A DNA stretch of 64,000 bases, taken from IMG/VR virus record IMGVR_UViG_3300048590_000661, positions 60,599 to 124,598 of that record. One strand, written 5' to 3'. The notes under the pieces are model-generated. The model was not told the origin of the DNA, searched no databases, and was given only the letters and a program-made list of their open reading frames with translations. The stretch's first letter is position 1, and each line of letters starts with the position of its first letter. Of this stretch, positions 44,669 through 61,732 are shown piece by piece. The position numbers were made by a program, and so were the translations under genes. Origin of the DNA: a virus.

Positions 44669-44734
44669 CGTATGTAAAGCGTAGGCTAGTCGTAGTCTTA
44701 GCGTCAAGTTAGGCAACGTAAAACATGGTATACT
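44669..44734 (+). promoter_or_regulatory. Class II promoter with 11-bp phased CGTA repeats (copy A)
   Basis: CGTA units start at 44669, 44680 and 44691, then CGTCAAGTTA at 44702, each exactly 11 bp apart. TATACT starts at 44729, 27 bp after the CGTC. No TTGACA. Drives the gene at 44779. Confidence 0.85.
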
Positions 44735-44778
44735 ATAGGTAGGGACGTAAATAAGTTACTAGATAAAGGAAAATAATC

Positions 44779-44997
44779 ATGGCTAGATTTGGCGTTGGTG
44801 ATATTGTAACTATTAAAACCAATCCATCAATATCAACAAAAGAAGATGTCACTATTGATGATATTGAAGTAGCTTGTGATGGTGATTCAGAGTTAAAAGC
44901 AGTCGTCACTATTATGCATGAAGATAAGACCGTTACTACAGTAGGGATTTTCCAATTGGCAATGTGGATTAATAACTATACAGATAGAAAGCGATAA
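44779..44997 (+). CDS. Conserved small phage protein
   Basis: 72 residues. ARFGVGDIVTIKTNPSI and VVTIMHEDKTVTT form a small beta-barrel-like pattern seen in many phage hypotheticals (FGVGD.V.IK..P). Function unknown. First gene after a class II promoter. Confidence 0.7.
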   Translation: MARFGVGDIVTIKTNPSISTKEDVTIDDIEVACDGDSELKAVVTIMHEDKTVTTVGIFQLAMWINNYTDRKR

Positions 44998-45003
44998 ATA
45001 ATT

Positions 45004-45477
45004 ATGCAAAGTCCACCGCAACATATTATTAAGTTCATGCGTAAGTATAATAAGTTAGCCACTTTCCAAGATAACCTACTTACATCAACTAATCATTTTG
45101 GTCAAATTGTCACCTATCAGTTTGACTATGAGGAAGATGGGGCTTATTTTAATAGTGGCACTTCTTTAGAGCCAGTTACTAAACTATTACCAAATGACTA
45201 TTTAGACTACACTATTCGTAAATTAGCCAATAGTAAAGTAGCTGGTATTGATGTTACTAACGCATTACGTGTTAGAAACTTTACTAATAGCTATTACCAT
45301 CTTAGTATCGCTAATATCAATTTCAGTATGTATAAAGCTGCATACAATAGGGCATATTCTATTACAGAATGGGGTTTGCGGATAAATATGTATTATACTG
45401 GTGAACATTTGATTATGTCATATTTAGATGGTAAATTAAAGGTATTTTTGCCCATAGATTATACATTTTTCACGTAG
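45004..45477 (+). CDS. Protein of unknown function
   Basis: 157 residues, rich in Tyr and Asn, mixed structure, no recognised motif. Confidence 0.65.
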   Translation: MQSPPQHIIKFMRKYNKLATFQDNLLTSTNHFGQIVTYQFDYEEDGAYFNSGTSLEPVTKLLPNDYLDYTIRKLANSKVAGIDVTNALRVRNFTNSYYHLSIANINFSMYKAAYNRAYSITEWGLRINMYYTGEHLIMSYLDGKLKVFLPIDYTFFT

Positions 45478-45522
45478 TCGTAACGAACTAAATTCACTAC
45501 TATAAATAAGGAATAAAATATC

Positions 45523-45642
45523 ATGGTATACAAACTACTAATTCCAGTGGCTTTTAAAGACGACAATATTATTTACGAAATCTTCTATAGCGACGTTATT
45601 ATTGAAGGCGCTATTATCTTGGAGGAATTTAAAATTGATTAA
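45523..45642 (+). CDS. Small protein (39 residues)
   Basis: Begins MVYKLLIPVAFKDDNIIYEI. AAGGAATAAAATATC precedes the ATG. The segment reads as beta strands. Its end overlaps the TTG start of the next small gene. Confidence 0.5.
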   Translation: MVYKLLIPVAFKDDNIIYEIFYSDVIIEGAIILEEFKID

Positions 45643-45760
45643 AGAAACATGGCGATTTATTAATTATACTTTAGGGCTTGTATACCTATATGACCCTCCA
45701 TATATTCATGCACTTCTTAACTTTTGGACAATCTTTCTATTAACAAGAAATTGGGGATAA
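45635..45760 (+). CDS. Small hydrophobic protein, TTG start (41 residues)
   Basis: Begins with TTG after a strong GGAGGA ribosome site (MIKETWRFINYTLGLVYLYD). Ends with a hydrophobic helix ALLNFWTIFLLTRNWG, probably membrane bound. Start overlaps the previous stop. Confidence 0.5.
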   Translation: MIKETWRFINYTLGLVYLYDPPYIHALLNFWTIFLLTRNWG

Positions 45761-45761
45761 A

Positions 45762-45944
45762 ATGACAAATGTTACTCATTGGGGCTATACATTCTCTGAA
45801 CTGAATATGATTCTAAAGTGGACTAAATTACCCATACTATATTTAGCCTCAATGAGTAATGGGGCTGCTTTAGAATTAGGTTGTAATGAAGAAACTGCCG
45901 AATTATTTCTACAAGAAGTCAAGGGATATTATGATGCTAAATAA
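45762..45944 (+). CDS. Small protein of unknown function
   Basis: 60 residues. AALELGCNEETAELFLQEV is a helix-turn-helix-like pair of helices but not a firm match. Overlaps the next start. Confidence 0.6.
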   Translation: MTNVTHWGYTFSELNMILKWTKLPILYLASMSNGAALELGCNEETAELFLQEVKGYYDAK

Positions 45945-46260
45945 CTTACTAAAAATGTTGTATATCAAATACCCTAATAAACTAGTGGGTGGCGTAATTT
46001 ATTTAGACGAATATAACGCTATTATTAACACTATTAGTAATTTAGATGGCGAAGTGACGGTTACTGAAGACATGATTATTTTACCTCATGAACTACTGCA
46101 CTTTGTACATATGCCATACCTTAGTTTTAAGGATGAAATATCGTTAGCTAGTTTTAATAGTTATACCCTAGAATTAGCGATGAATAAATTAGTTTATCCG
46201 TTGACTAATTATATCGTTAATGATAGTGAGCCTATTTATGTTAGTGAGCTATTTAGATAA
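45931..46260 (+). CDS. Protein of unknown function
   Basis: 109 residues from MMLNNLLKML, preceded by AAGGGA. No recognised motif. Confidence 0.65.
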   Translation: MMLNNLLKMLYIKYPNKLVGGVIYLDEYNAIINTISNLDGEVTVTEDMIILPHELLHFVHMPYLSFKDEISLASFNSYTLELAMNKLVYPLTNYIVNDSEPIYVSELFR

Positions 46261-46271
46261 AGGAAAGTATT

Positions 46272-46829
46272 ATGTCAAACAAAAAATATACATCAGTTAT
46301 TGAGTTTTACGTTAATGAAGTACTGCCACTAGTTAGCGAAGGCGCTAAATTTGTGGCGATAGATAGTGATTTTGATGTTTGTGAATACACAAAGAAACCT
46401 GAATTTAGTGATAATGGCGCTATAAGGTATTCTTATTTCAAGTTATCAACTTATGATAGTGAATATCGCAAACTACTTAATGCAGAACGCTTTTTTGATA
46501 GTGCGCTAAACTTTAGTGAAACATGTGTTTCTATTGAGCTATTAGAAAATTATAAAGCTTGTAGCAATATCGAATTTATGAATAAGCCAGCGGTTAAATT
46601 TGATGTACTTGGTGCTATTCCATTTGTTGAAGCTAAAAAGAACTGGTTTACTTCGCAATCTGGTATCGAGCTAGGCTATTTAAGTAAATATCAAGTAATT
46701 GACTTGGTTGCTTACTTTGAAAGCTTGTATGATGGGGATAACTTTCATACCGTTATGTCAGATAGTTGTATTGTAATGTACTTGGCAGGTAATGTGCTTA
46801 TTCATGCGGTATTGGTAGAAAGTGCTTAA
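46272..46829 (+). CDS. Protein of unknown function
   Basis: 185 residues, acidic, mixed structure, no recognised motif. AAAGGAAAG ribosome site; one-base overlap with the next gene. Confidence 0.65.
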   Translation: MSNKKYTSVIEFYVNEVLPLVSEGAKFVAIDSDFDVCEYTKKPEFSDNGAIRYSYFKLSTYDSEYRKLLNAERFFDSALNFSETCVSIELLENYKACSNIEFMNKPAVKFDVLGAIPFVEAKKNWFTSQSGIELGYLSKYQVIDLVAYFESLYDGDNFHTVMSDSCIVMYLAGNVLIHAVLVESA

Positions 46830-47179
46830 TGGTGGAAATAGGTTTTAATGACAGGTTTGACAACTTAATCATTGGGCTTGCGAATGATCAAATGTGGTTT
46901 TTAACTAAGGAAAAAATAAATTCCTATAGGTTTGCCTCTTGGGTGTCGGACAAAAGAGGGTTTAATTTTTCTATCGTCTTCAAACCTGAATTTTCTCTTT
47001 GTGCGATTCATAATTCGTTTAAAATAACCATACACAAGGATATTTTGCATAGTTCAGGGCTGAAGACGGAATTATCACAAATCAATATTTACAATAGATC
47101 GGCAAATCTTCGGTCAGAGCTTGAATATTACTGGTTTGTGCAGCTTTATTTTCTTCATAAAGAATTATTTCGATGTTAA
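46829..47179 (+). CDS. Protein of unknown function
   Basis: 116 residues, ATG in TAATGG overlapping the previous stop. No motif. Last plus-strand gene before cassette 4, its stop lying in the terminator arm. Confidence 0.62.
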   Translation: MVEIGFNDRFDNLIIGLANDQMWFLTKEKINSYRFASWVSDKRGFNFSIVFKPEFSLCAIHNSFKITIHKDILHSSGLKTELSQINIYNRSANLRSELEYYWFVQLYFLHKELFRC

Positions 47180-47226
47180 ATTAGGTGTATAAGGTAGGTT
47201 ATTAATTTATCTTATACACCTAATTT
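47178..47226. terminator. Bidirectional hairpin terminator, cassette 4
   Basis: Perfect 16-bp arms AAATTAGGTGTATAAG and CTTATACACCTAATTT with a 17-base loop between convergent genes. Confidence 0.86.
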
Positions 47227-47228
47227 AA

Positions 47229-47996
47229 TTAACAATAATAATATTCGTAGTAATTTAATAATGTTTGGCGATATTTATACTCATGGACTAACCAATTTTC
47301 CAAATCAAATAGTGTATTTGTTAGGCTTGTAGGATAGATAGAATGAAAATTATCATGGCACCGCTTACAAAGTGTAATTAGATTGCTTTCTTCAAATCGC
47401 AATTCTTCATAAGTTGCAAAATCAAATATATGATGAACATTTAGCCATCCTTTGTGTTGATTGCAATTTTGGCAAGTGTAGTTATCACGTTCTCTAATTA
47501 TTCGATTTATTTGTTTTAATTTGGTTCGATCAAGCTTATTTTTTGGTGAAATTCCGCCTTTCCAATTTCTATTATTTTCACCAGAATTTAGTTCACTAGA
47601 CCGCTCTATTTTAAGGCACCCGCAAGATTTAATGCCACCATTAGTCAGTTGGCTACCGGTTACTATGCTTATGGTCAAACAATCACATTGGCATAAATAG
47701 CGCCACCTACCATGCGTATCTTGTGAATGTTTTTCTAATACTAATAACCTATTGAATTTTTGTCCTATTAATTCGTCAGCCTTAATTTCATGATATTTAG
47801 AAATCGCGCAAGAGTTACAACAATACCATCCATTTTTACGCCTTAAACTATTCAGTGCAACTTCGTATTCTCTATTACACAATAAGCACAAACAAAGAAA
47901 ATGTCTATGTTTACCTTTTTTATCTACTTCTCTAATTACTTCCCAATGTTTATTTGGAAATGTATCGCCTGGATTAATTTCTAGTCTTTTCGGCAT
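47229..47996 (-). CDS. Zinc-ribbon HNH endonuclease, cassette 4
   Basis: 255 residues, full layout: LEINPGDTFPNKHWEVI, CLCLLCNREYEVAL, CCNSCA, QKFNRLLVLEKHSQ, CQCDCLTISIV, CGCL, HNH RDNYTCQNCN, LNVHHIFDFATYE, LITLCKRCHDNFH. In the second unit CGNEK is changed to CLTIS, a small departure. Reversed relative to neighbours and overlapping its ribbon-helix-helix partner. Confidence 0.92.
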   Translation of the reverse strand: MPKRLEINPGDTFPNKHWEVIREVDKKGKHRHFLCLCLLCNREYEVALNSLRRKNGWYCCNSCAISKYHEIKADELIGQKFNRLLVLEKHSQDTHGRWRYLCQCDCLTISIVTGSQLTNGGIKSCGCLKIERSSELNSGENNRNWKGGISPKNKLDRTKLKQINRIIRERDNYTCQNCNQHKGWLNVHHIFDFATYEELRFEESNLITLCKRCHDNFHSIYPTSLTNTLFDLENWLVHEYKYRQTLLNYYEYYYC

Positions 47997-48150
47997 TATT
48001 ATCTTCCTCTACTTCATTACTCTTTGCATAATGGCGAATAGCAAGTTCAAGAATTGCAGGTTTTGAAATATCTAATTTCTCAGATAGTTTATCAAGTAAA
48101 TTTTTGGCAGTATTAGAGAAACGAATGCTTGTTGGATTGTTTTTATTCAT
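47974..48150 (-). CDS. Ribbon-helix-helix protein, cassette 4
   Basis: 58 residues beginning MNKNNPTSIRFSNTAKNLLD. Very close to the cassette 1 protein (PTSIRFS, LLDKLSEKLDISKPAILELA), so these two cassettes are the nearest relatives. The end is read in another frame of the HNH start. Confidence 0.82.
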   Translation of the reverse strand: MNKNNPTSIRFSNTAKNLLDKLSEKLDISKPAILELAIRHYAKSNEVEEDNNAEKTRN

Positions 48151-48278
48151 GTCGTCTTTTTCCTTTTAGTTTGTATAGATTAATGTATATCTCAATTGTA
48201 TCATATTTCAAATACACACTCCTAATTTATGAATATTAGGCTATATTACTGTATTATCAATCAGAAAGATTATATATT

Positions 48279-48818
48279 ATGCTAAAATCAACTATGTCTA
48301 TTCATGAACTAATTTCAATGGTAAAATCATTGAGCGGGGTTCTTGTTGGTAGCAGAATGATGGGTTGTAACTCTATAACGTCAGATTACGACTTCCTTGT
48401 TTTATATCGCCAAGAAGCAATTGATGAACTAATCAAGTTTGGGTTTAATCTTGTTATTGGGTTGCCTGAAGATGGTGAATATTACTATAGCGATAATCTA
48501 GTAACATTCTATCGTGCATATTCTAGTGAAGGTATCAAGATAGAAGTTCAAGTAGCGCCAACACTAGATTTAATGAATATAATTTATGACACATACATGA
48601 CCTTGCGTGAAAATAGTACGTACAAATTACTTATGAAGCCGTTTAGACAGTTTCTATATTTAACTACGCTTGATGACAAAATCCAACGTTCCATTTTAGT
48701 ATCAAATGAAGTAAAAGAAATTTCGCGGAACATGGTCTATAATAGTCAAGGTGTAATATTTACCCAATTACAAACTATTTTTAGTAATTCAGTAGGAGAA
48801 AATGAGATTACTTTCTAA
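48279..48818 (+). CDS. Nucleotidyltransferase-like protein
   Basis: 179 residues. Motif LVGSRMMGCNSITSDYDFLV (GS...DxD) and EGIKIEVQVAP with the third acidic residue place it in the Pol beta/MNT superfamily, in a branch found in phages. As with the gene at 41578 it lies directly after an RHH-HNH cassette. Substrate unknown. Confidence 0.76.
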   Translation: MLKSTMSIHELISMVKSLSGVLVGSRMMGCNSITSDYDFLVLYRQEAIDELIKFGFNLVIGLPEDGEYYYSDNLVTFYRAYSSEGIKIEVQVAPTLDLMNIIYDTYMTLRENSTYKLLMKPFRQFLYLTTLDDKIQRSILVSNEVKEISRNMVYNSQGVIFTQLQTIFSNSVGENEITF

Positions 48819-50007
48819 CACCGATCCACATTTATCTATTCGCCTAGACCGACCAGTCCATAGCCGAAGACGACGAAGATATAAGCGTAAAAATAATCAA
48901 ACCATATCTATTAATTCCACTTTAATCGTGAATGAAAAATCAGAAAGAGTGGAATTAATAGTATTTGCTCTACAATTCTCGACAATAGAATTTTTGTTAT
49001 TGGAGAAGTTGTTAGCTTTCCCTCTCAACAGAAAATACAAAATTTCTTTTGAAGAAGCTTTTTACGATAAACATCACTATTTTTTAGAGATAGAGAACAC
49101 TCATAAAGTAAATCCTAGAATAATTCTCGCTGCATTTGAATTAGGTATTAAAATAACTCATAAAGATAACCTATTAACTTTTGAAGCTAATGAAATACAA
49201 TTTAACGATTTCATTCAACAAGTATTCATACTTTTATTTTGTCATATTAGTCAGCATGACGACTATTTAATCTCTGAGAAAGTTATTAATAGAATACGTC
49301 GATACACTAGAAAATGGTTAAAAAAGTTATCACCAAATTCTAAGGCATATTTTAAAAAAACCATAAAAGTGCCTAAAAATAACTTCATAAAATTCTTGCG
49401 AGAAAATAATAAGCCTAAAATAAAAAAACTTAATTGCATTGAAGAAGTCGTAGACCTTATTAATAGTCTAAATATCTCATCTATGATTGATATCGGCATA
49501 GCTAATAATGGTATCATCTGTTATGCCATTGCTCATTATAATAAGCATATTCAAGTAACAGGAATTAGTGAGGATAATAATAAGGTAATAGTAGCTCGAC
49601 AAGCTAAACCAACATATAAGGGTAAAGTATTGGATGGTGCTTATTATAAGAATCTAGTATTTATTCAAGCTAACCCTTTATTACCTATAATCTGTAATTA
49701 TGCACCAGTTGACCTATTAGTTATTAGCGATGGAAATACTGAAGGGTTAGAAAATGTTATAAATGATTATTATAAGCCCAGGTATATAATCGCTATTACT
49801 GACGATAAGGTAACATTAACAGAATTAGAGCAGAATAATAGCCTGTCTAAATGGCAAAAGTTTTATGAAGAATTTACAAAAGATGACCCATATAAAATTA
49901 GGGCTATTAACGAAGGTCTTTGCCACCTAAATACTTTTAATGGCGATTTCCAAAAGTTATATGAAGAATCGCTAGAAAATTACCGTCAACGTAGGCTAAA
50001 CGTATAG
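48802..50007 (+). CDS. Protein of unknown function with Rossmann-like C-terminal half
   Basis: 401 residues. The first part is basic (RPVHSRRRRRYKRKNNQ). The second half reads SSMIDIGIANNGIICYAIAH, VTGISEDNNKVIVARQAKP and YAPVDLLVISDGN, like motifs of a SAM-dependent methyltransferase (motif I, acidic strand 2, strand 4), but the glycines of motif I are poor. Its 3' end contains the first CGTA units of the next class II promoter. Confidence 0.65.
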   Translation: MRLLSNTDPHLSIRLDRPVHSRRRRRYKRKNNQTISINSTLIVNEKSERVELIVFALQFSTIEFLLLEKLLAFPLNRKYKISFEEAFYDKHHYFLEIENTHKVNPRIILAAFELGIKITHKDNLLTFEANEIQFNDFIQQVFILLFCHISQHDDYLISEKVINRIRRYTRKWLKKLSPNSKAYFKKTIKVPKNNFIKFLRENNKPKIKKLNCIEEVVDLINSLNISSMIDIGIANNGIICYAIAHYNKHIQVTGISEDNNKVIVARQAKPTYKGKVLDGAYYKNLVFIQANPLLPIICNYAPVDLLVISDGNTEGLENVINDYYKPRYIIAITDDKVTLTELEQNNSLSKWQKFYEEFTKDDPYKIRAINEGLCHLNTFNGDFQKLYEESLENYRQRRLNV

Positions 50008-50055
50008 ATAGCGTATGGCAAACGTCAAGTAAAGCATCGAAAAGCATGGTATAAT
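49990..50055 (+). promoter_or_regulatory. Class II promoter with phased CGTA repeats (copy B)
   Basis: CGTA units at 49990, 50001 and 50012, CGTCAAGTAA at 50023, all 11 bp apart; TATAAT at 50050, 27 bp after the CGTC. The first units lie inside the end of the preceding gene. Confidence 0.86.
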
Positions 50056-50106
50056 ATGGGTAGGCAAGAAAATAAACGTGTAGGATAAGAAAAGGAAAAT
50101 AATATC

Positions 50107-50316
50107 ATGGAAAGCAAAAGCGAATCACTTATCGGAATGAAGCTAACCGCTATTGAATTTATGGAAGATGGCGAATCATTAAAAATGACCTTTGATAATG
50201 ATGATTCGGAAGCTGTTGTAATTGTTAAATCGACACTTCAACCTAATACACCTAAAGGGCACGAATTACAAATGTATATGGAAAAAGTAACTGTTGAAAA
50301 ATGTCGGCTAATTTAA
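50107..50316 (+). CDS. Small protein of unknown function
   Basis: 69 residues, beta-rich (LIGMKLTAIEFMEDGESLKM). First gene after class II promoter B with AAAGGAAAATAATATC before the ATG. Confidence 0.65.
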   Translation: MESKSESLIGMKLTAIEFMEDGESLKMTFDNDDSEAVVIVKSTLQPNTPKGHELQMYMEKVTVEKCRLI

Positions 50317-50331
50317 AAAGGAAAAATAATC

Positions 50332-50484
50332 ATGTTAGCAGATATTGTTTTGGGTGTTGCATTTGTTTATATGCTTAGTATGGCAGTATTCGTTAATGCT
50401 AGGGACTCGGTAGCATTCTTGTTTTTTCGATTTGTACCATTTTTGATTAGTTTGGGATTGGGATATATTTTGTTCGTTGCTTAA
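50332..50484 (+). CDS. Small membrane protein (50 residues)
   Basis: Begins MLADIVLGVAFVYMLSMAVF; two hydrophobic helices, the second VPFLIS then LGLGYILFVA. AAAGGAAAAATAATC ribosome site. Function unknown. Confidence 0.58.
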   Translation: MLADIVLGVAFVYMLSMAVFVNARDSVAFLFFRFVPFLISLGLGYILFVA

Positions 50485-50508
50485 TTAAAATAAAGGAAAG
50501 TAATAATC

Positions 50509-50859
50509 ATGGAAATCTTAAAAGAATTTGAAGGTAAAGTGTTAGAGAACGTTACCTATAATAAAGAAGATGAAATATTAACTTTCTATTTTACTAATGG
50601 TGATGTTTATGAAATGTTTCACGAACAAGATTGTTGCGAATCTGTTTATCTTGAAGATGGGTATGATGACCTTATGTTTTTAATTGGTCAAGAAATTTTA
50701 CAGGCTTATGTAACTAGTAATAGTGGCGATGATGATGGCGGAACATATACCTATACATATTACAACATCAGCACATTTCTTAATAGTGCCACACTTCGTT
50801 GGTACGGGTCTAGCAATGGGTACTATTCAGAAGCGGTAGATATTCAGAAAGTAGGGTAA
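50509..50859 (+). CDS. DUF7448-like phage protein
   Basis: 116 residues. FEGKVLENVTYNKEDEILTF and MFHEQDCCESVYLEDGYDDL match a conserved phage family (H.QDCCE.V.IED..GDL..LIG). Function unknown, beta-rich. Confidence 0.72.
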   Translation: MEILKEFEGKVLENVTYNKEDEILTFYFTNGDVYEMFHEQDCCESVYLEDGYDDLMFLIGQEILQAYVTSNSGDDDGGTYTYTYYNISTFLNSATLRWYGSSNGYYSEAVDIQKVG

Positions 50860-50863
50860 TATC

Positions 50864-51082
50864 ATGGAATCCATTATTAATATTCTAAAACGTGAAATTG
50901 AGTTAGCCCAAATATTTATTGACTTGAATAAAGAAACACCTAGTAATGAAGATTATCAATATTATCTTGGTAGATATACATTAGGCACCGCTATTTTAGA
51001 AGAGTTAGTAAAGGTACACGCTATTAATATTCAAATGGCTGGATTAATCGAAAAATTAATGACTAGAGAGTTTGGGGAATAA
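50864..51082 (+). CDS. Small helical protein
   Basis: 72 residues, all helical. Shares the layout M..II..L..E...A......T..P.Y..YLG.Y..... with the gene at 52791, so the two may be paralogues. Confidence 0.62.
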   Translation: MESIINILKREIELAQIFIDLNKETPSNEDYQYYLGRYTLGTAILEELVKVHAINIQMAGLIEKLMTREFGE

Positions 51083-51086
51083 TATC

Positions 51087-51248
51087 ATGACTATTAAACA
51101 AGGGTATTGGGTAATTTGGCGGCAAAAGAACGGTAAAATGTCAGAGAAATTTTTTGAACGGTATTGGGAAGCGCAACAGAAAAGACAGGATTTAATTCGT
51201 AAAAGTTTTACTGATGTTTCTATGCAAGTTGGAGTTAATAAGAAATAG
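51087..51248 (+). CDS. Small basic protein (53 residues)
   Basis: Begins MTIKQGYWVIWRQKNGKMSE; basic, helical, no motif. Starts four bases after the previous stop. Confidence 0.55.
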   Translation: MTIKQGYWVIWRQKNGKMSEKFFERYWEAQQKRQDLIRKSFTDVSMQVGVNKK

Positions 51249-51697: not shown

Positions 51698-52201
51698 ATG
51701 GAACTAATTATGAAAAACATTATTAATTTTCAAAACAATTGTGAAGAATTAATTTATATCGTTACTCAAAACACAGATGATTTAACATATAAATTTATTA
51801 ATGTATATTATTCCGAAGATTTCTCGCAACTAGAAAAGTATTTGCGGAAAGTCACTAATAAGCTTACTAAATTATCACTTTCTGATGATGATCTAAAATT
51901 ATCCATTCAATACTATTTTGCTAAGTTCGCCTTGAATAATAATTTATATCCTGATGTATTTCCAGAATTACCAAATATGCTAACTAGTAGTGTAATTAAT
52001 TTAGGCAATAAAATTATTGATGTGTTTGCCATTGATAAATACTATTACAGTGAATCGAAAAATAAATTAATTAGTATTATGGAAATGGCTACAAAGCATA
52101 TTCATAATTCCGTGAATAAAAAACTAAAAAATAATGAAATTGATGAAGAATTGACGGAACTAATTAATGAATTAGTAGATCGGGTAAAAGAAGATGGGTA
52201 A
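51698..52201 (+). CDS. Helical protein of unknown function
   Basis: 167 residues (a second ATG at 51710 is possible). Rich in Asn and Leu, helical; no motif. Overlaps the next gene by eight bases. Confidence 0.62.
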   Translation: MELIMKNIINFQNNCEELIYIVTQNTDDLTYKFINVYYSEDFSQLEKYLRKVTNKLTKLSLSDDDLKLSIQYYFAKFALNNNLYPDVFPELPNMLTSSVINLGNKIIDVFAIDKYYYSESKNKLISIMEMATKHIHNSVNKKLKNNEIDEELTELINELVDRVKEDG

Positions 52202-52478
52202 AGTAATCGCTAGTAAAGCAGTAAACGAAAATACAGGAATGAGTATTTTTGATGAATTGAAAATCACGCATAACTTATACCAAAACTATAGTCGTCATTA
52301 TGACATTTTATCCTTAGGAAATAACCTAGAAGAGTTCGTTAGATATTTCTATGCTTATTTTTATGAAGATTATATGTTAAGTGATAATTGGGTAAAAGGT
52401 AGAGCAAAACAAATAGCGGATTTATTCGCTTATGATTATATGCAACAGTTTATTTTAAAAGATGAATACCAATCGTAG
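52194..52478 (+). CDS. Protein of unknown function
   Basis: 94 residues, helical, aromatic-rich, no motif. Its stop overlaps the first CGTA unit of class II promoter C. Confidence 0.62.
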   Translation: MGKVIASKAVNENTGMSIFDELKITHNLYQNYSRHYDILSLGNNLEEFVRYFYAYFYEDYMLSDNWVKGRAKQIADLFAYDYMQQFILKDEYQS

Positions 52479-52528
52479 GGTAATCGTATGCTTCCCGTCA
52501 AGTTAGGAACTGCTATTCGTGATATACT
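52474..52528 (+). promoter_or_regulatory. Class II promoter with phased CGTA repeats (copy C)
   Basis: CGTA units at 52474 and 52485, CGTCAAGTTA at 52496; TATACT at 52523, again 27 bp after the CGTC. Confidence 0.85.
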
Positions 52529-53063: not shown

Positions 53064-53687
53064 ATGCAAATTATCTCAGATACACATTGCGAATATGAAG
53101 TATTAATTAGTCATATCAAAAACACCACAGAAGAAAACATAATCCTATTAGGTGATCATGGGTTTGGTCTTGATTACATGGGCTTGCCTTTTACGACCAA
53201 GTTTTTATCTCAAATGTTTCCTAATAAGTATTTTTGGGCGATTAGTGGCAATCACGATAATCAAGCATTTATGACTAACGAACCAAATGTATACACTATT
53301 ACTACAAAATCTGGCCCACAAATTTTCTATATTGAAGGTAAAGATATCTTAATGATTCCAGGTGCTTATTCGTATGATAAGAATTTACAACTGATGCAAA
53401 GCTCATGGTACGAAGATGAGCAAATGTCATGGCAAAGATGGGCGAAGTTTTTAAATGAGTTTAAAGTAATGCCGTTTGATGTGATTATGTCACATGATAC
53501 CAGTATTGTTAATTATTACCTGTCTTATCGTAAGACTGATGAATCATTGACTAGTAATGGGCTAGAATATATCTATAATACTTTCCCGACTATTCCAAAG
53601 TATTCAGGCCATTTGCATAATAGTTTCTATAATAGCAGACTTAATAATATTGGGTTAGGCATTAATCAAAGCTTGCTTCTTATTTAG
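53064..53687 (+). CDS. Metallophosphoesterase
   Basis: 207 residues. Calcineurin-like motifs in order: ISDTHCEYE, ILLGDHGFG, AISGNHDNQAF, VIMSHDTS, YSGHLHNS. A compact single-domain enzyme; could act on nucleotides, RNA ends or cyclic signals. Not closely related in sequence to the larger one at 25433. Confidence 0.82.
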   Translation: MQIISDTHCEYEVLISHIKNTTEENIILLGDHGFGLDYMGLPFTTKFLSQMFPNKYFWAISGNHDNQAFMTNEPNVYTITTKSGPQIFYIEGKDILMIPGAYSYDKNLQLMQSSWYEDEQMSWQRWAKFLNEFKVMPFDVIMSHDTSIVNYYLSYRKTDESLTSNGLEYIYNTFPTIPKYSGHLHNSFYNSRLNNIGLGINQSLLLI

Positions 53688-54911: not shown

Positions 54912-55023
54912 AGATTAACCGAAAAACACGAATTACCTATTTATACATGGTTAGGTCTTACTATTGGTCTTTTTGTAAACATGGAATTACAAACCATTAA
55001 TATATTTGAAAAGGAATAATAAT

Positions 55024-55518
55024 ATGCCTAGTATTTATGTAGCATCACTTGCAGATTATAATAATGGCAATCTTTTTGGTGTTTGGATTGATGCTGATTT
55101 AGATGTTGACGATATGCAAGAAGCTATCCATTTAATGTTAAAAGAGTCTAAATATCAACCAGCAGAAGATTGGGCTATTCATGATAGTGAGGGGTTTGGT
55201 AACGTTTCTATTTCTGAAAATATGTCATTAGAAAGCATTTCGATTATTGCGCAATTACTAGAAAAACACGATAATGATCTAGTAGCAGAATTAATTGAAT
55301 ATTATAATGACCTAAATGTTGTAGAAGATGAATTAGCGAATAAACTATATGGCGTGTATGATGGGTATGAAGAATTTGCTAAAGAATTACTATCACATAT
55401 TGAAGTGCCAAAAGAATTAGATGGTTATATTGATTGGGATTTTATCGGTCAAAATAAAGCCGATACGGAATTTAATAGCTTTATGATTAATGATACACTT
55501 TATGTATTTTCTTCTTAA
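55024..55518 (+). CDS. ardA: ArdA antirestriction protein
   Basis: 164 residues from MPSIYVASLADYNNGNLFGV. The ArdA pattern is clear: the N-terminal strand and W-x-D (WIDADLD), EDWAIHDSEGFGN, two acidic domains, GVYDGYEEFAKELL, and YIDWDFIG near the C-terminus. ArdA mimics DNA and blocks type I restriction enzymes. It follows the decayed cassette 5 and has a weak AAGGAATAATA ribosome site. Confidence 0.88.
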   Translation: MPSIYVASLADYNNGNLFGVWIDADLDVDDMQEAIHLMLKESKYQPAEDWAIHDSEGFGNVSISENMSLESISIIAQLLEKHDNDLVAELIEYYNDLNVVEDELANKLYGVYDGYEEFAKELLSHIEVPKELDGYIDWDFIGQNKADTEFNSFMINDTLYVFSS

Positions 55519-55765
55519 TTTAGATGAAGTAATTAAAGATGTAGCACATAATATGAATACTAATACCACTGTTATGTTCGTGGTGAATAATAACGAATAC
55601 CTTGTGACTTCTGACCATTACAGAATTTCGCTATTTCATATTAAAGACGGTACAAAAGTTTTAATCATGTGTATTAATACTCACAATAGTAAAGCAGAAA
55701 TTGACTTTAGTTATATTTACGATGGACTTGTAGCATCAAAATTAATGGCAGAAATATTTAAGTAA
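55502..55765 (+). CDS. Small protein of unknown function
   Basis: 87 residues from MYFLLNLDEVIK, overlapping the end of ardA by 17 bases (a start at 55490 is also possible). Beta-rich, no motif. Confidence 0.62.
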   Translation: MYFLLNLDEVIKDVAHNMNTNTTVMFVVNNNEYLVTSDHYRISLFHIKDGTKVLIMCINTHNSKAEIDFSYIYDGLVASKLMAEIFK

Positions 55766-55781
55766 TAGGAGAAAAAATAAC

Positions 55782-55925
55782 ATGAGTCAAAGTTTAGATC
55801 AAATTCAAAAAGATAATAAAGACCATTTTGATGTAATAGAGCGAGTTGCAGATAAGGCAAAAGAGGCCCAACAAGCAGTAGATGATTATAAGGCTAAGAA
55901 TACTAATCAAGGAGATAAAACATAA
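55782..55925 (+). CDS. Small coiled-coil protein (47 residues)
   Basis: Begins MSQSLDQIQKDNKDHFDVIE; charged helix, AGGAGAAAAAATAAC ribosome site. Its stop overlaps the next start (TAATG). Confidence 0.58.
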   Translation: MSQSLDQIQKDNKDHFDVIERVADKAKEAQQAVDDYKAKNTNQGDKT

Positions 55926-56071
55926 TGGGTAATAAATGGGATGAACTGGAAGACCTAAAAGAAGCTAGAAGGCAGCATGAAGAAAATATGCGACGTATTA
56001 GGGAAGCAGAAGAAGCAGCAAAAAGAGCACAAGAACAAATAAAAAACCTGCCAGAAGAAAAACCTAAGTAA
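55925..56071 (+). CDS. Small coiled-coil protein (48 residues)
   Basis: Begins MGNKWDELEDLKEARRQHEE; a single charged helix with Glu/Arg/Ala repeats. Coupled to the previous gene; the two may form a heteromer. Its stop lies in the cassette 6 terminator arm. Confidence 0.58.
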   Translation: MGNKWDELEDLKEARRQHEENMRRIREAEEAAKRAQEQIKNLPEEKPK

Positions 56072-56130
56072 ATAAAATAGCCGTAAATAATATTAACTAG
56101 AAACTAATATTATTTACGGCTATTTTATTT
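56070..56130. terminator. Bidirectional hairpin terminator, cassette 6
   Basis: Perfect 26-bp arms (56070-56095 and 56105-56130) with a 9-base loop, the longest in the window. It contains the stop codons of both converging genes. Confidence 0.9.
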
Positions 56131-56862
56131 ACGATATATCTCTAATAATTCATTTCTATATTGATATTCTTTATTCATCCAAGTTTCCAAATCTGATAAA
56201 GTGTTAGTCCCTATATTTGTATATATAGAATGAAAATTTTTATGGCAGTCAAAACATAAAGTGATTAAATTAGCTATTTCAAGTCGCGATTCTAAATACG
56301 TAGCAAAGTCAAAAATGTGATGAACATCTAACCTTACATTATATTGCCCACAATTTTGGCAAGTATTATTATCTCGTTTTTTAATTATAGGGTTAATATA
56401 CGTGCTTAGTTTTATTCTATCTGCAATAGTTTCTGAATTTAACCCCCCTTTCCAATTATGATGTTTGTCACCAGAACGAATTTCACTAAGTACTTCTTTG
56501 TTATAGCAAGTGCATGAAGAAATTTCACCACTTTTTAAATGCGCACCTGAAATAACCTTTTCTTCCCCACAGTCACAAATACATAAATACCGCCATGCGC
56601 CAGATTTAAACTGCGAATGTTTACTAATAACAGTTAATCTACCAAAGTTTTGCCCTCTTAAATCATCAGAATAAGCGCAAGATCGACAACAAAAACTGAT
56701 ATTTTTACTTTGTAAACTAATTAAACTGACATTATATTCCCTATTGCATAACAAACATTCACATGAAAAATATCTTTGTATTCCCCGTTTTTCTATCTCC
56801 TTAATTACTTTCCAGTTTTTAAAAATATCACCTGGGTTAATTTCTAGTTTATTTCTGCCCAT
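56125..56862 (-). CDS. Zinc-ribbon HNH endonuclease, cassette 6
   Basis: 245 residues from MGRNKLEINPGDIFKNWKVI (a GTG nine bases upstream is possible). Full layout: CECLLCNREYNVSL, CCRSCA, QNFGRLTVISKHSQ, CICDCGEEKVI, CTCY, HNH RDNNTCQNCG, LDVHHIFDFATYL, LITLCFDCHKNFH. Its last residues are encoded in the terminator arm. Reversed relative to neighbours. Confidence 0.92.
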   Translation of the reverse strand: MGRNKLEINPGDIFKNWKVIKEIEKRGIQRYFSCECLLCNREYNVSLISLQSKNISFCCRSCAYSDDLRGQNFGRLTVISKHSQFKSGAWRYLCICDCGEEKVISGAHLKSGEISSCTCYNKEVLSEIRSGDKHHNWKGGLNSETIADRIKLSTYINPIIKKRDNNTCQNCGQYNVRLDVHHIFDFATYLESRLEIANLITLCFDCHKNFHSIYTNIGTNTLSDLETWMNKEYQYRNELLEIYRK

Positions 56863-57007
56863 CTTTTTCACCTTCTAATTTATCATAAACACGCAACGCC
56901 ATTTCGAAAATTGACGTCTTTGTTACGCCTAATTTTTTAGAATACTTTTCTAAAATTTCTTTTGCCTCTTTTGTTAGTCGCACCGCTGTTTGTTTCTTAT
57001 TCATCAT
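56849..57007 (-). CDS. Ribbon-helix-helix protein, cassette 6
   Basis: 52 residues beginning MMNKKQTAVRLTKEAKEILE. Strand (QTAVRLT), helix (EAKEILEKYSKKLG), helix (KTSIFEMALRVYDKL). It overlaps the HNH start by 14 bases. Minus-strand promoter TTGTAT-17-TATAAT upstream. Confidence 0.82.
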   Translation of the reverse strand: MMNKKQTAVRLTKEAKEILEKYSKKLGVTKTSIFEMALRVYDKLEGEKDGQK

Positions 57008-57543
57008 TATTTTCCTTTATTTTGTTAGTTATATACACCTAACTGATTATACTATATAGTTATACATTATACAAAATTAATGAAAAATTGGTACATTTGT
57101 TCTATTTTTGAAGGTGCCATTTTCACCTTAAAATGGTGATCAAAACTGGCATAGTCTTTTCGCGGAAATCGTGAAAATTAAAATTAAATGAGAAAAAAGT
57201 TTCTCGATATTTCTTCGATAACTTAACACTGTATACCTTTCCAGTAAGAAAATTTGTTCTATTTGCTCGAGGTATGCGCTATTTTCTCGATTACTTTGCT
57301 ATATATCGACCGTTATCGATAAATAACCTGGAAAATACCCTATTAATATAGGTGTAAACGTCCACCATTGCACGAAAATAAGCGCAGTATACATATACAT
57401 CAAAAAAGCATAAAGACAATTGATAAAGCGCTTTATCAACGGCTATATAGAATGTTAGTTATAAGCTTATATAGATAGATAGCGCTGGTCTAGTCTCTAT
57501 AGCAGCACTATCTATATTATAGGGAAAATAGACTTTTTTGTAT
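57008..57543. other. Noncoding control region, possible origin
   Basis: No gene was seen. It contains a 20-bp perfect palindrome TTGATAAAGCGCTTTATCAA (57420-57439), a hairpin CCATTTT/AAAATGG near 57118, several TCGAT/TCGATAA repeats between 57200 and 57340, and an imperfect stem GATAGCGCT/AGCACTATC near 57480-57520. The mixture of palindromes and short repeats would fit an origin or regulatory centre (inference). Confidence 0.5.
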
Positions 57544-57609
57544 CGTAGGGTAAACGTATAATTTGCGTAGGGTAAACGTCAAGTTAGATGTAAAAAAGCA
57601 TGATATCAT
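57544..57609 (+). promoter_or_regulatory. Class II promoter with phased CGTA repeats (copy D)
   Basis: CGTA units at 57544, 57555 and 57566, CGTCAAGTTA at 57577, all 11 bp apart; TATCAT at 57604, 27 bp after the CGTC. Two of the units are identical CGTAGGGTAAA. Confidence 0.86.
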
Positions 57610-57659
57610 GTAATTACGAACGAAAACAAGCGAGTGACTAGAAAAACGGAGTATATAAA

Positions 57660-57884
57660 ATGCCGCGAATGCTGACAACTGACGAACAAGATATCTATTT
57701 TGCACTATTAAACGAGGAAGTTAAACCGTTAATTGTAACTTATGCAAAAGGTAAGTTAAGCGATCAAAATTTTCATGAAGCAAGTCTCGCAATACTAAAT
57801 AAAATAGACGACGATATTTTGTATTTTATCATTGCCGAGTATATCCACGCTGCGCAGTTAGTAATTAATACTCCGTTTGATTAA
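57660..57884 (+). CDS. Small protein of unknown function
   Basis: 74 residues, helical, acidic, no motif. First gene after promoter D. Confidence 0.65.
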   Translation: MPRMLTTDEQDIYFALLNEEVKPLIVTYAKGKLSDQNFHEASLAILNKIDDDILYFIIAEYIHAAQLVINTPFD

Positions 57885-57942
57885 TAGGTACGGCAGCACC
57901 AACACAATTTTTTCTCAACTAACACAAGAAAGATAACTAACC

Positions 57943-58149
57943 ATGAATACGATTACACTAGAATTTACACTCGAAGAAATTAACGCAGTACTGGAAGCGC
58001 TTGATATGTTGGGAAGTCTGCGTTTTTACTCTGAAAAGATGCACACGTTAAAAAATCATATCGACGCACAAACAGATTTACGCTCCGCTGCCCAACTACA
58101 ACCCGACCTAACAGAAAAGTTTGCTATTGCGCTTGAATCACTTGCATAA
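57943..58149 (+). CDS. Small helical protein of unknown function
   Basis: 68 residues (TLEFTLEEINAVLEALDMLG). The leader TAACACAAGAAAGATAACTAACC before its ATG, in two pieces of under 20 bases, is repeated before the next gene, so both share a translation signal. Confidence 0.66.
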   Translation: MNTITLEFTLEEINAVLEALDMLGSLRFYSEKMHTLKNHIDAQTDLRSAAQLQPDLTEKFAIALESLA

Positions 58150-58198
58150 TTTTTATATCGTCTTTTAACTTAATCTAACACAAGAAAGATAACTAACC

Positions 58199-58957
58199 AT
58201 GAATACGCAACCAACCACTAACACAAATAACACTCAACTTTCACAAAATAAGTATAATGTAACTATGGAAAATACAACAGGCAAGCGCGGTCGCAGCACT
58301 TTTAATGGTTCACTAGCTATCGAAAAAATGGTGCCTACTTGTTATGAACCTGTTACACGTATTGCGCAAGATATGGCAAGTATGAACCTGCAAGCATGTT
58401 TCAATTATCCTAGTTCACGGTTTAACGGTAAGATGATTTACGATACTTTCGTCAAACAGTATACTGAAGTTCTAAACCTGTCTGAAGTAGCTACTCAACA
58501 TACCGATATTTTCGGCCACGCTTACAAGGTCCACAAGTTTATGTATACTGGCGAAAATAGCGTCAATGAAGATACAGAGGAAGAAGAAGAAGATAAGGAA
58601 GTAGAATTTCATACTGAAGAGGATGTGAAAGAGAATTTTGAACTTGCAATCGCCAAGCTACTGGAAACAATGCAGGCGAATGATACCTATAAGTTACTTG
58701 CACAGCCTGTAACTGATGCACTTAAAGCAGCGAACAATAGTAGTATTCTATTCGCTACTATGTCGCAATATGGCGCAGTCACAAAGTCACGCAAAACAGC
58801 AGCGGTTGAGCCAAAGGTGTATTATCTATATATCCTAGTTGCTCAAGATCATGACACCCCACGTATTGACGCACGCTTAGCACTTGGCACGAAAGATAAT
58901 TCAGATATCAGTACGGTTATTGCACTATACAAGAATTACATCATGACTGAAGTGTAA
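58199..58957 (+). CDS. Protein of unknown function
   Basis: 252 residues. N-terminal Thr/Asn/Gln-rich tail, basic patch GKRGRSTFNG, a very acidic linker (NEDTEEEEEDKEVEF) and a C-terminal alpha/beta domain (VEPKVYYLYILVAQD). No family recognised. It is followed by switching hairpins. Confidence 0.7.
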   Translation: MNTQPTTNTNNTQLSQNKYNVTMENTTGKRGRSTFNGSLAIEKMVPTCYEPVTRIAQDMASMNLQACFNYPSSRFNGKMIYDTFVKQYTEVLNLSEVATQHTDIFGHAYKVHKFMYTGENSVNEDTEEEEEDKEVEFHTEEDVKENFELAIAKLLETMQANDTYKLLAQPVTDALKAANNSSILFATMSQYGAVTKSRKTAAVEPKVYYLYILVAQDHDTPRIDARLALGTKDNSDISTVIALYKNYIMTEV

Positions 58958-58967
58958 TATAATAAAA

Positions 58968-59086
58968 GATAATAAGCTATAGCAGATGTATAGCTTATTA
59001 TCTCACTTAAGCATATAATCGGGCCAATTATCTAGCAAAATAGGCCAAATTTGTTAGCGGATTATATGCTTACGTGAGATAATAAG
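58968..59086 (+). promoter_or_regulatory. Mutually exclusive hairpins (terminator or attenuator)
   Basis: Hairpin 1: GATAATAAGCTATA (58968-58981) with TATAGCTTATTATC (58989-59002). Hairpin 2: 58994-59020 with 59060-59086, 27 bp with one mismatch. They share 58994-59002, so only one can form at a time. Confidence 0.72.
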
Positions 59087-59114
59087 TATATGCCATAGAA
59101 TAGGTAATAGCGCT

Positions 59115-59270
59115 ATGTACATAACTAAAATTAATAACTTACCAGTTCCCCCTATCTTTGTTACAGACGAACAAGCAATCTATACTATGCTGCATGTAAT
59201 GCAAGCTAAGTCAATTACATGGAAATATAATGGTACACGTCAATTAGAGCATACACTAGAAAGCGAATAA
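59115..59270 (+). CDS. Small protein (51 residues)
   Basis: Begins MYITKINNLPVPPIFVTDEQ. No motif. Directly after the switching hairpins, which could control it. Confidence 0.55.
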   Translation: MYITKINNLPVPPIFVTDEQAIYTMLHVMQAKSITWKYNGTRQLEHTLESE

Positions 59271-59275
59271 TACTT

Positions 59276-59455
59276 ATGATGCATCAAATATTGCAAAGTG
59301 AAAATGTAGAATTAGAACAAGATACCATACAAACGATATCAGAAGAAAGTGAATGTATCTTTTGTGGGTGCGCTCTGTATGTCGGAGATATTGCGTATTA
59401 TGATATTAACGATAATATATACTGTTCTGTAAAATGTGCCCAACTAGATACATAG
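59276..59455 (+). CDS. Small zinc-ribbon protein (59 residues)
   Basis: Begins MMHQILQSENVELEQD. CIFCGCALYVGD and IYCSVKCAQL form a four-Cys site like those of MYM/treble-clef-type zinc ribbons. Function unknown. Confidence 0.6.
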   Translation: MMHQILQSENVELEQDTIQTISEESECIFCGCALYVGDIAYYDINDNIYCSVKCAQLDT

Positions 59456-59467
59456 GATAACTAACGT

Positions 59468-59716
59468 ATGCCATTAGATAACGTATTTTTTACCGACATA
59501 CACGATCTAAATTCTAATAACTATGTACATATAGAATCTAGATCGTGTAATTTAGAGATTGAGTTTATCTCAACACTATTACAGTATATAAGCGAAGGGT
59601 ATAGAATTATCGATGTAGTCAACTATAAGTCTGTTGGTCTATATGTTACTACGCTAGTTAGTAGCCAAACAGATTTACATATTACACTAAAGCTGTGTAC
59701 AAATGGAGTAAAATAA
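59468..59716 (+). CDS. Small protein of unknown function
   Basis: 82 residues, beta-rich, no motif. Overlaps the leader of the next gene. Confidence 0.62.
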   Translation: MPLDNVFFTDIHDLNSNNYVHIESRSCNLEIEFISTLLQYISEGYRIIDVVNYKSVGLYVTTLVSSQTDLHITLKLCTNGVK

Positions 59717-59718
59717 CT

Positions 59719-60036
59719 ATGCAAGCTACAATTAATACTACTATCGTATATCCTGTAAAAGCAGACAAGTATAAAAGTTATGCTATCCATAGAATATTAA
59801 TTTTCGATAGTGATAAGCAAACTTTTAAACATGGCAAACAATGGACAGTTACGCACTTAGAAACAGGTTACAACGTAGGGTTACATTTCCCTACTCGCAA
59901 AATTGCACGGCAATTCGTAACAGAATTACAAGCTATTAACCTTACTTTTGAATGGAGTACAATTCTTAACCAGTTTACAGGTAGTCTTACTCCTGAAATT
60001 CAAACCCTACTCAACAAGTATAAACAGAGTAACTAA
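59719..60036 (+). CDS. Protein of unknown function
   Basis: 105 residues from MQATINTTIVYPV. KQWTVTHLETGYNVGLHFPT resembles a small beta domain with a following helix. No family recognised. Confidence 0.64.
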   Translation: MQATINTTIVYPVKADKYKSYAIHRILIFDSDKQTFKHGKQWTVTHLETGYNVGLHFPTRKIARQFVTELQAINLTFEWSTILNQFTGSLTPEIQTLLNKYKQSN

Positions 60037-60038
60037 CC

Positions 60039-60233
60039 ATGCACTATTACATCGTACCTATTAACCATCCTACATATACGCATGGAGTATACGCTCAAAA
60101 TAAACTAGTAAGGGATAGTAGGTTAGTTTTTACAGGCAATTTTACAGCTTGCGTACTAGAAAGACTCACACTTACACAATCTAAAGTAATACCACGTATA
60201 CAACCTAAAGCAAAAGGAAATAGGGTAAGATGA
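60039..60233 (+). CDS. Small basic protein
   Basis: 64 residues, basic, ending KAKGNRVR. No motif. Overlaps the next gene by four bases. Confidence 0.6.
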   Translation: MHYYIVPINHPTYTHGVYAQNKLVRDSRLVFTGNFTACVLERLTLTQSKVIPRIQPKAKGNRVR

Positions 60234-60481
60234 GATATACCAGAAAACAGTTAAAAACAGACATAGAACAAGTAAATACTTTTTTATCTGACAAAAATAT
60301 TGATATCGTAGTAATTATAGAAAGTAGGACAACGCATATAAATATTGATATTGCCACAAACGAACAAGCAAAAAGATATACAACTATAGGTCAAATTGCA
60401 AGCGGTACACCTTCGCAATGTATAACAAAAGTGTATGCGTGGTTAGGTAGACAATTCTTATTTAACCGTTTCCCATTTTAA
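60230..60481 (+). CDS. Small protein of unknown function
   Basis: 83 residues, coupled by an ATGA overlap. Alpha/beta appearance, no motif. Confidence 0.6.
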   Translation: MRYTRKQLKTDIEQVNTFLSDKNIDIVVIIESRTTHINIDIATNEQAKRYTTIGQIASGTPSQCITKVYAWLGRQFLFNRFPF

Positions 60482-60585
60482 CAGGCAAGGTTACACGATA
60501 GCCAACAGTATAGTAGTATATGCCATAATATTATCTATCGTGTAACCTACTGCCCTATATGTCAATTGAGAAAAAGAATAGAATA

Positions 60586-60783
60586 ATGGCAGAGCAAGAA
60601 TTTTTACAACGTGCGCAACAGATAGCTATAGCGAATAACTTGACGACAGATATTAATACATATAGTGTATTATCTAATGGCTATACTATCTCTTCATTGC
60701 AGACTGATCTATATAATGTACCACTACTAATCGTTACTTACTCCCAAGGTTGGTTAACTACTACACTAGCGCAAGCGATATAA
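60586..60783 (+). CDS. Small protein of unknown function
   Basis: 65 residues from MAEQEFLQRAQQ (an ATG at 60559 would add nine residues). No motif. Confidence 0.58.
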   Translation: MAEQEFLQRAQQIAIANNLTTDINTYSVLSNGYTISSLQTDLYNVPLLIVTYSQGWLTTTLAQAI

Positions 60784-60810
60784 CTATACTAAAGATACAA
60801 GGAAGGTATT

Positions 60811-61029
60811 ATGCAATTACGTATGTTAGCTATTAATGGTTCACTAGATAAGTATATATGCGTCAATAATACTGTAATAGGTAGATTGACGCTAGCTTAC
60901 CCAGGTGACTTAGATAAATGGATGATAGCGGATAGCAAAGAAAACTATTTACATACAGGATTCACTACTGCTATGTATGGTAAATCACTAAAACTATGGC
61001 GTATAGGGGTAAAGAATTATATGTCATAA
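60811..61029 (+). CDS. Small protein of unknown function
   Basis: 72 residues. Last gene of the rightward half; AAGGAAGG ribosome site. No motif. Confidence 0.6.
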   Translation: MQLRMLAINGSLDKYICVNNTVIGRLTLAYPGDLDKWMIADSKENYLHTGFTTAMYGKSLKLWRIGVKNYMS

Positions 61030-61152
61030 CTTAGTCTAGTTGACATAATAACCTAGCTAATACATGAGTATATAGGCTATACGTGCAAGCTTAATCCCAT
61101 TATCTTAATATCTCAAAATGAGATATTATATATTAAATAGGCGGTAACTAAC

Positions 61153-61205
61153 ATAAGTAATTACTTATATCTCTTATCTATTTACATATAAGTAATTACT
61201 TATAT
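61153..61205. repeat. Pair of AAGTAATTACTT palindromes
   Basis: ATAAGTAATTACTTAT (61153-61168) and ATATAAGTAATTACTTATAT (61186-61205), about three helical turns apart centre to centre. Looks like two operator sites for one protein. No gene lies here. Confidence 0.7.
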
Positions 61206-61277
61206 CACCTATTATCTGTATCGATGGGGTATATTACATATACTCTATTGCACAAAATAACCTAATTATTTACACTG

Positions 61278-61310
61278 CCCTATTAGATATCTAATAGGGT
61301 TTTATTTTGC
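61278..61310 (+). terminator. Terminator of the rightward operon
   Basis: CCCTATTAGAT and ATCTAATAGGG, a perfect 22-bp palindrome, followed by TTTTATTTT. Confidence 0.85.
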
Positions 61311-61338
61311 CTACTGGCTAAATTATTTAATTAGGTTA

Positions 61339-61536
61339 ATTATACAGTTAGTCTCAACTAAAAAATTATTTAATCCTATTTAATTATATAGTTAACTGGC
61401 GGATTAATACAGGTTAATAGTATAGTTAGCCTAGCTTAATTAATTAGTTAAATAGGGTTAATACTTTAATTAAGCTAGGCTGACTAATTAGTTAATACAG
61501 GTTAAATAATTTTTTAGTTGAGACTAACTGGATAAT
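61339..61536. repeat. Nested long inverted repeats
   Basis: Outer arms 61345-61373 and 61502-61530 are perfect over 29 bp (extending to about 36 with one mismatch). Inner arms AGCCTAGCTTAATTAA (61428-61443) and complement (61466-61481). TTAATACAGGTTAA occurs twice as well. No gene. Between convergent operons. The stretch 61537-61686 holds nothing I can name. Confidence 0.8.
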
Positions 61537-61686
61537 TAATGGCAATTAAATTGATTTTTAGCCGCAACTAAAATTCCTATTAGGCGAGGATAAGGCGCTT
61601 GGGCCTATGGAAAAATTCTAGGTAAAATTTTCTTAATTATAAATCGTGATTTACGAAAATAATTTGGGATAACTATCTCCATATAT

Positions 61687-61732
61687 CGTATGGCAATCGT
61701 AGGAAACAAAATAAGCATATATGTGTTATAAT
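61687..61732 (+). promoter_or_regulatory. Class II-like promoter of the small RNA (copy E)
   Basis: CGTA units at 61687 and 61698, 11 bp apart; TATAAT at 61727. The last unit is 29 rather than 27 bp from the -10 and reads CGTAGG, so this is a variant member. Confidence 0.68.

Follow-up and report, generated by a model that had tools for sequence, protein, structure and literature searches.

Promoters and gene blocks of the right arm

The window analysed here is a 64,000-nucleotide stretch of phage DNA, bases 60,599-124,598 of the 124,598-bp virus record IMGVR_UViG_3300048590_000661, with 32% G+C; positions are given in window numbering. Four promoter sites in its right arm carry CGTA-N7 units phased at 11 bp, and each stands before a block of rightward genes. 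An earlier note on this DNA read them as class II promoters, with an activator bound beside RNA polymerase, and saw in them an undescribed phage activation system. The sites, the blocks and one further gene are listed below. Bit scores are from a weight matrix trained on host promoters, which is described in the next section.

44669..44734, + strand: promoter 1; CGTA units at 44669, 44680 and 44691, CGTCAAGTTA at 44702; extended -10 TGGTATACT with hexamer TATACT at 44729-44734; 46.7 bits
44779..47179, + strand: gene block 1; small genes of unknown function; terminator-like hairpin at 47181-47223 after its end
49990..50055, + strand: promoter 2; CGTA units at 49990, 50001 and 50012, CGTCAAGTAA at 50023; extended -10 TGGTATAAT with hexamer TATAAT at 50050-50055; 45.5 bits
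50107..52478, + strand: gene block 2; small genes of unknown function
52474..52528, + strand: promoter 3; CGTA units at 52474 and 52485, CGTCAAGTTA at 52496; extended -10 TGATATACT with hexamer TATACT at 52523-52528; 47.9 bits, the top score of the genome
52575..56071, + strand: gene block 3; includes a metallophosphoesterase (53064-53687) and ardA (55006-55518)
57544..57609, + strand: promoter 4; CGTA units at 57544, 57555 and 57566, CGTCAAGTTA at 57577; extended -10 TGATATCAT with hexamer TATCAT at 57604-57609; 39.3 bits
57660..61029, + strand: gene block 4; small genes of unknown function; terminator-like hairpin at 61277-61300
62172..62423, - strand: protein of HTH_17 (MerR/Xis/BldC-like) fold; a weak Pfam HTH_17 match (E=6.6e-5), below the curated cut-off

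The earlier note gave two or three CGTA-N7 units at 11 bp, then CGTCAAGT, with the -10 at 27 bp and no TTGACA box; this description is exact at 44669, 49990, 52474 and 57544. CGTCAAGT starts at 44702, 50023, 52496 and 57577, always 27 bp from the start of the -10 hexamer, and a TG lies one base upstream of each hexamer. At the -35 position, 16-18 bp upstream of the -10, AAGTTA/AAGTAA-like letters take the place of TTGACA. Promoter 3 has a degenerate unit (TGA) 11 bp before its first CGTA, where host promoters have a degenerate TGT. The gene at 44779, downstream of promoter 1, has the Shine-Dalgarno (SD) sequence AAAGGA.

CGTA-N7-CGT matches the window 15 times against 2.1 expected. The longer pattern CGTA-N7-CGTCAAG-N20-TAnnnT is found four times, and not once in 100 second-order simulated windows; the chance expectation for the full four-site pattern is about zero. 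The sites are confined to the right half and precede gene blocks, as first described: all four lie on the + strand of the right arm, and no further copy of the full pattern was found in the rest of the 124,598-bp record, the left half having been scanned.

A fifth variant, proposed at 61687 (61687..61732, + strand), does not belong to the class. It has two CGTA units 11 bp apart, without the CGTC(AAGT) unit and with a misplaced TATAAT; it scores -18 bits with the host-trained matrix, by which the four real sites reach +39 to +48, and was dropped. The small RNA proposed there has little support of its own: the fold of a short segment has z = -0.16 and that of a longer, 129-nt segment z = -2.9. 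GTCAAG was also considered as a TTGAC box in reverse, part of a divergent promoter, and rejected, as inspection by eye shows no conserved -10 on the opposite strand.

Near-perfect TTGACA-17/18-TATAAT promoters are present outside the right-arm blocks, at 41513-41541 (+ strand) and 30442-30471 (- strand); the array is therefore a second promoter class in this phage. Two of the arrays run into the gene before them. The open reading frame (ORF) at 48802-50007, overlapped at its 3' end by promoter 2, has its TAG stop inside the CGTA unit at 50001-50007 (CGTATAG). Likewise, the ORF at 52194-52478, overlapped by promoter 3, ends inside the unit at 52474-52478 (CGTAG).

The promoter in other viruses and in Chloroflexota

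The scan of the genome and of other phages that the earlier note had suggested finds the pattern at the four genome sites and again in distant phage contigs. Among 2.9 million viral contigs scanned with the three-unit pattern, five sites are present in the 52-kb contig IMGVR_UViG_3300024520_000102 (40-44% G+C) and one in IMGVR_UViG_3300009285_002135 (60% G+C), each at a distance of 27 bp from its -10. IMGVR_UViG_3300002231_001505 (52% G+C) was found in addition with a stricter pattern. With the host-trained matrix, the 52-kb contig has 12 sites on both strands (20-56 bits) and the site in IMGVR_UViG_3300009285_002135 scores 39.8 bits. The window phage and the 52-kb contig share distant homologues only, in few proteins and mostly at 23-39% identity; the shared promoter is therefore not simply inherited with a genome. 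The window phage has no named DNA relatives among 50,697 phage records, and its DNA polymerase shares only about 27-29% identity with those of known phages.

Three and five more of these promoters lie on low-G+C, phage-like contigs of two metagenome bins, one labelled Bacteroidota and the other Proteobacteria (L091, JAKQEK010000294.1; L182 and L201, RXKA01). Some of these contigs encode proteins about 26-34% identical to those of the window phage; they are probably misbinned Anaerolineae phages. A contig with one site (G003/L084) scored -17.9 with the matrix and was not counted. Matches of viral contigs to a single-unit pattern were also set aside, being almost all chance matches in coding regions. 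BLAST searches with the consensus promoter gave matches at the -10 end only.

The element is not restricted to phage genomes, as more than 100 chromosomal copies are found in Chloroflexota. A scan of 84,980 prokaryote species with the phage-derived pattern returned at least 119 loci. Among the matches listed, 113 of 119 are titled Chloroflexota, mostly Anaerolineae; three of the other six are phage-like contigs (in two records) and the remaining three are apparently chance matches. In at least 106 of the 119 listed loci, the array and extended -10 are followed by the same short intergenic RNA. The class II reading of the earlier note thus stands in part. A putative activator site at -35, a fixed distance and the absence of a -35 consensus are found at all four phage sites and in the host promoters, and the array, which replaces the -35 beside an extended -10, recurs in other phages. 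The phage-specific part fails: the same promoter lies on at least 100 Chloroflexota chromosomes, where it appears to drive a small-RNA family. What was taken for a phage activation system is most likely a host promoter class adopted by phages.

A weight matrix was built from 120 host promoters only; it reads TGT.gg.caAt-CGTAGGGtAAt-CGTAGGgTAag-CGTCAAGTA-N15-TGnTAnnnT. Over the 124.6-kb phage genome it gives the four sites 47.9, 46.7, 45.5 and 39.3 bits; the next best position scores -10.8, and peaks in five shuffles lie between -19 and -8.9. In the host copies the last unit is CGTCAAGT/C, ending 16 bp before the extended -10, and the element varies least in CGTCAAG and the extended -10. Further upstream the 11-bp phasing continues in degenerate form (CGTTGTGTTTC-CGTGCATCAAA-CGTAGGG-CGTCAAG); the complete element therefore has four units.

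Ten Anaerolineae genomes have one to three sites each by a one-unit pattern; second and third copies, ending CGTCAAGC, also appear to drive paralogous RNAs. When eight host genomes were scanned with a 40-bp pattern allowing up to three mismatches, 17 sites were found (two or three per genome) and control patterns gave no matches. Fifteen of the 17 are RNA genes, one lies before a lipoprotein-like gene and one has no evident gene or -10. In Longilinea arvoryzae (L246:1501-1600), the element before the small lipoprotein-like gene is diverged and keeps the 27 bp to the -10. The pattern is present in only 20 of 251 sampled Chloroflexota genomes, consistent with an element restricted to part of the phylum.

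The host small RNA

The RNA downstream of the host promoters is about 70 nt long. Its sequence is GUAAGGUGAUUUCUCUUCUCCUCCUUUCAA or a near match to it and runs on into a stem-loop, usually with UCGGCGU in the loop; a genome usually has one to three copies. The protein genes downstream differ between loci, which marks it as a small RNA and not a leader. Example loci are:

L154:1805-1899: host RNA
L133, about 3350-3450, - strand: host RNA
L183:5742-5836, - strand: host RNA
about 100 more loci

Across 46 aligned copies, CUUCUCCU hardly varies and is unpaired, and each of the ten stem pairs has compensatory changes and no more than one break. The unpaired anti-SD stretch CUUCUCCUCCUU is complementary to AAGGAGGAGAAG; the obvious inference from this complementarity is that the RNA would block translation by anti-SD pairing.

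At seven host loci, Rfam gives no small-RNA match at the gathering threshold; the only match is an unrelated T-box elsewhere in one locus. The best match below threshold is anti-hemB in one genome (32.7 bits, cut-off 49.5), which is not repeated in another genome. The RNA is a conserved, undescribed family that corresponds to no recognised Rfam family. The open-access literature searched holds no description of the promoter or of the RNA, and no published regulatory small RNA of Anaerolineae was found in it. In principle only, the host RNA resembles the alpha-r14 or 'cuckoo' small RNAs such as NfeR1 of Sinorhizobium, which are stress-type RNAs with a conserved unpaired anti-SD motif and sequence-variable stems (PMC10746234). 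The alpha-r14 RNAs are alphaproteobacterial and have three hairpins with CCUCCUCCC, whereas the host RNA has one CUUCUCCUCCUU stretch and one stem-loop; its score with the Rfam ar14 model is 16.7 bits against a cut-off of 58.8.

A gene resembling methylated-DNA methyltransferase lies upstream of the RNA in 56 loci. The gene about 190 bp downstream is common to 49 loci and is prephenate dehydrogenase-like where read. Neither the window phage nor IMGVR_UViG_3300024520_000102 encodes a copy of the RNA.

Proposed activation of the phage promoters

The four phage sites are probably host-type, activator-dependent promoters adopted by the phage, at which a host activator would recruit host RNA polymerase. 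Repeats on one face of the DNA abutting the polymerase, the missing -35, the fixed distance and the extended -10 together argue for activator-dependent sigma-A transcription. The activator is most likely host-encoded, because the element precedes a chromosomal RNA in more than 100 bacteria and because no activator is recognisable in IMGVR_UViG_3300024520_000102 despite its 12 promoters. The proteins of this contig and of the window phage that were scanned contain no response regulator, AraC-type protein or sigma factor by Pfam. The 11-bp period and tandem arrangement make an OmpR/PhoB-family regulator probable; tandem direct repeats of about this period, up to four units, are found in both phages and hosts. 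Four genomes bearing the small RNA encode 7-22 OmpR-type proteins each, and six of these are common to all four by reciprocal best hits; these six are candidates for the activator, nothing more.

Such a response regulator would bind the 11-bp units head-to-tail on one DNA face, one dimer per two units. Once bound, it would replace the -35 contact and recruit host sigma-A RNA polymerase. The four right-arm blocks, including ardA, could then be transcribed without a phage-made activator or phage protein synthesis, and would respond to the host signal behind the small RNA. The ArdA antirestriction protein in block 3 (55006-55518) has a Pfam match of E = 6.6e-26; an antirestriction protein such as ArdA is useful early.

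Among known systems, CiaR-csRNA comes closest, as an analogue and not as the same system. Promoters of streptococcal csRNA genes controlled by CiaR, an OmpR-family protein, contain TTTAAG-N5-TTTAAG, with the second repeat ending 10 bp before the -10 (PMC3091779). There too, direct repeats of 11-bp period replace the -35 at a conserved distance from the -10, and the regulated genes encode several paralogous small RNAs with single-stranded anti-SD stretches and a terminator hairpin (PMC3091779). The present promoters do not have the CiaR motif at its 10-bp distance; their units are CGTA/CGTC-N7, up to four in number rather than two, they belong to a different phylum, and phages also use them. 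The PHO/GlnR boxes bound by PhoP and GlnR in Streptomyces are likewise tandem 11-nt direct repeat units with a conserved GT-containing core, in arrays of two or more (PMC6988585). Their core is GTTCACC and they serve metabolic genes, whereas the units here are CGTAGGG/CGTCAAG and serve a small-RNA family and phage operons.

The activator could instead be made by the phage: a small HTH_17 protein (BldC/excisionase-like), for example the product of ORF 62172-62423, might multimerise head-to-tail on the repeats and turn on the right-arm operons, mimicking a host factor. This ORF is the sole HTH-type protein found in the right arm, and another HTH_17 match is present among the remaining phage proteins. 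BldC-type, MerR-like proteins do bind direct repeats in variable number, cooperatively and head-to-tail (PMC5859096). The BldC repeats are 9 bp long and AATT-based, however, whereas the period here is 11 bp and the core CGTA; IMGVR_UViG_3300024520_000102 has 12 sites and no HTH_17 match; and the element precedes a chromosomal small RNA in more than 100 hosts. These differences make a phage-made activator improbable. Only slightly less so is a promoter with no dedicated activator, in which Anaerolineae polymerase would read CGTCAAG by an unusual sigma region 4 across a 20-bp spacer and the upstream units by the C-terminal domains of its alpha subunits, in the manner of an UP element. The invariance of CGTCAAG and the extended -10 fits such a reading, as does the spacing of UP sub-sites, which is likewise close to one helical turn. 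An array of up to four phased units, GC-containing and sequence-specific, is nevertheless more than two alpha subunits bind; the TTGACA promoters at 41513 and 30471 indicate that ordinary polymerase needs no array in this phage; and in eight host genomes the array is almost confined to one RNA family, unlike a general promoter element.

The arrays might also be operators at which a repressor silences an extended -10 promoter, for example during lysogeny or for as long as a host signal persists. A promoter with an extended -10 can dispense with the -35, and the position of the array would suit steric repression. A repressor needs no fixed distance, though, and the invariant 27 bp and the missing -35 fit activation; a non-exhaustive search of the scanned phage proteins recognised neither an integrase nor a repressor gene. 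Repression is thus very improbable.

Several points weigh against adopted host promoters driven by a host activator. Transcription from these sites is read from the DNA letters, the activator is represented by candidates of which none is linked to the sites, and the assignment of the window phage to Anaerolineae is based on the motif, by which it most likely infects bacteria of this type. The conserved neighbourhood of the host RNA loci contains no regulator, and the array was not found before any regulator gene in the three-mismatch scan of eight host genomes, which also served as the search for autoregulation. The window phage does encode two weak HTH_17 proteins, one in the right arm and one among its remaining proteins. 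The last unit ends 16 bp from the -10 rather than 10 bp as for CiaR, so that contact with polymerase would be arranged differently. Finally, the matrix link between phage and host is partly circular, as the host loci were fetched by a core pattern derived from the phage; only the conservation of letters outside that pattern, the limited taxonomic range and the RNA that follows the promoter are independent of it.

A further step is a good deal more speculative, and we regard it as doubtful: the phages may eavesdrop on their hosts, with the host regulator of the translation-blocking anti-SD small RNAs also turning on the phage right-arm genes. The ribosome-binding sites of the phage right arm (AAAGGAAAAT, AAAAGGGAAAT and ACGGAGTAT) are without the GGAGGAGAAG stretch with which the host small RNA would pair, so that phage messages would be favoured just when host messages are repressed.

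Other features of the window surround the gene blocks. Paralogous HNH endonuclease genes lie on the - strand, opposing the operons, at 43690-44587, 47229-48150, 56125-57007, 33492-34407 and 40740-41303. Several are preceded by a gene for a ribbon-helix-helix-like protein of about 55 amino acids, an arrangement that resembles a repeated two-gene selfish element. Long, nearly perfect hairpins of 16-20 pairs (43646-43684, 47181-47223 and 56077-56123) stand at the 3' junctions of rightward operons and leftward HNH genes; they are probably bidirectional terminators.

For the Anaerolineae, a large and mostly uncultured bacterial class, these results apparently define a class of promoters, a small regulon and a family of structured small RNAs. 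The RNA is carried by the cultured strains Longilinea arvoryzae KOME-1, Anaerolinea thermolimosa IMO-1 and Ornatilinea apprima P3M-1, which permit direct experiments. The promoter signature could link uncultured viruses to Chloroflexota hosts whatever their base composition (32 to 60% G+C here). It also allows a test of whether a single host regulatory pathway has been tapped independently by unrelated phages for their own genes.

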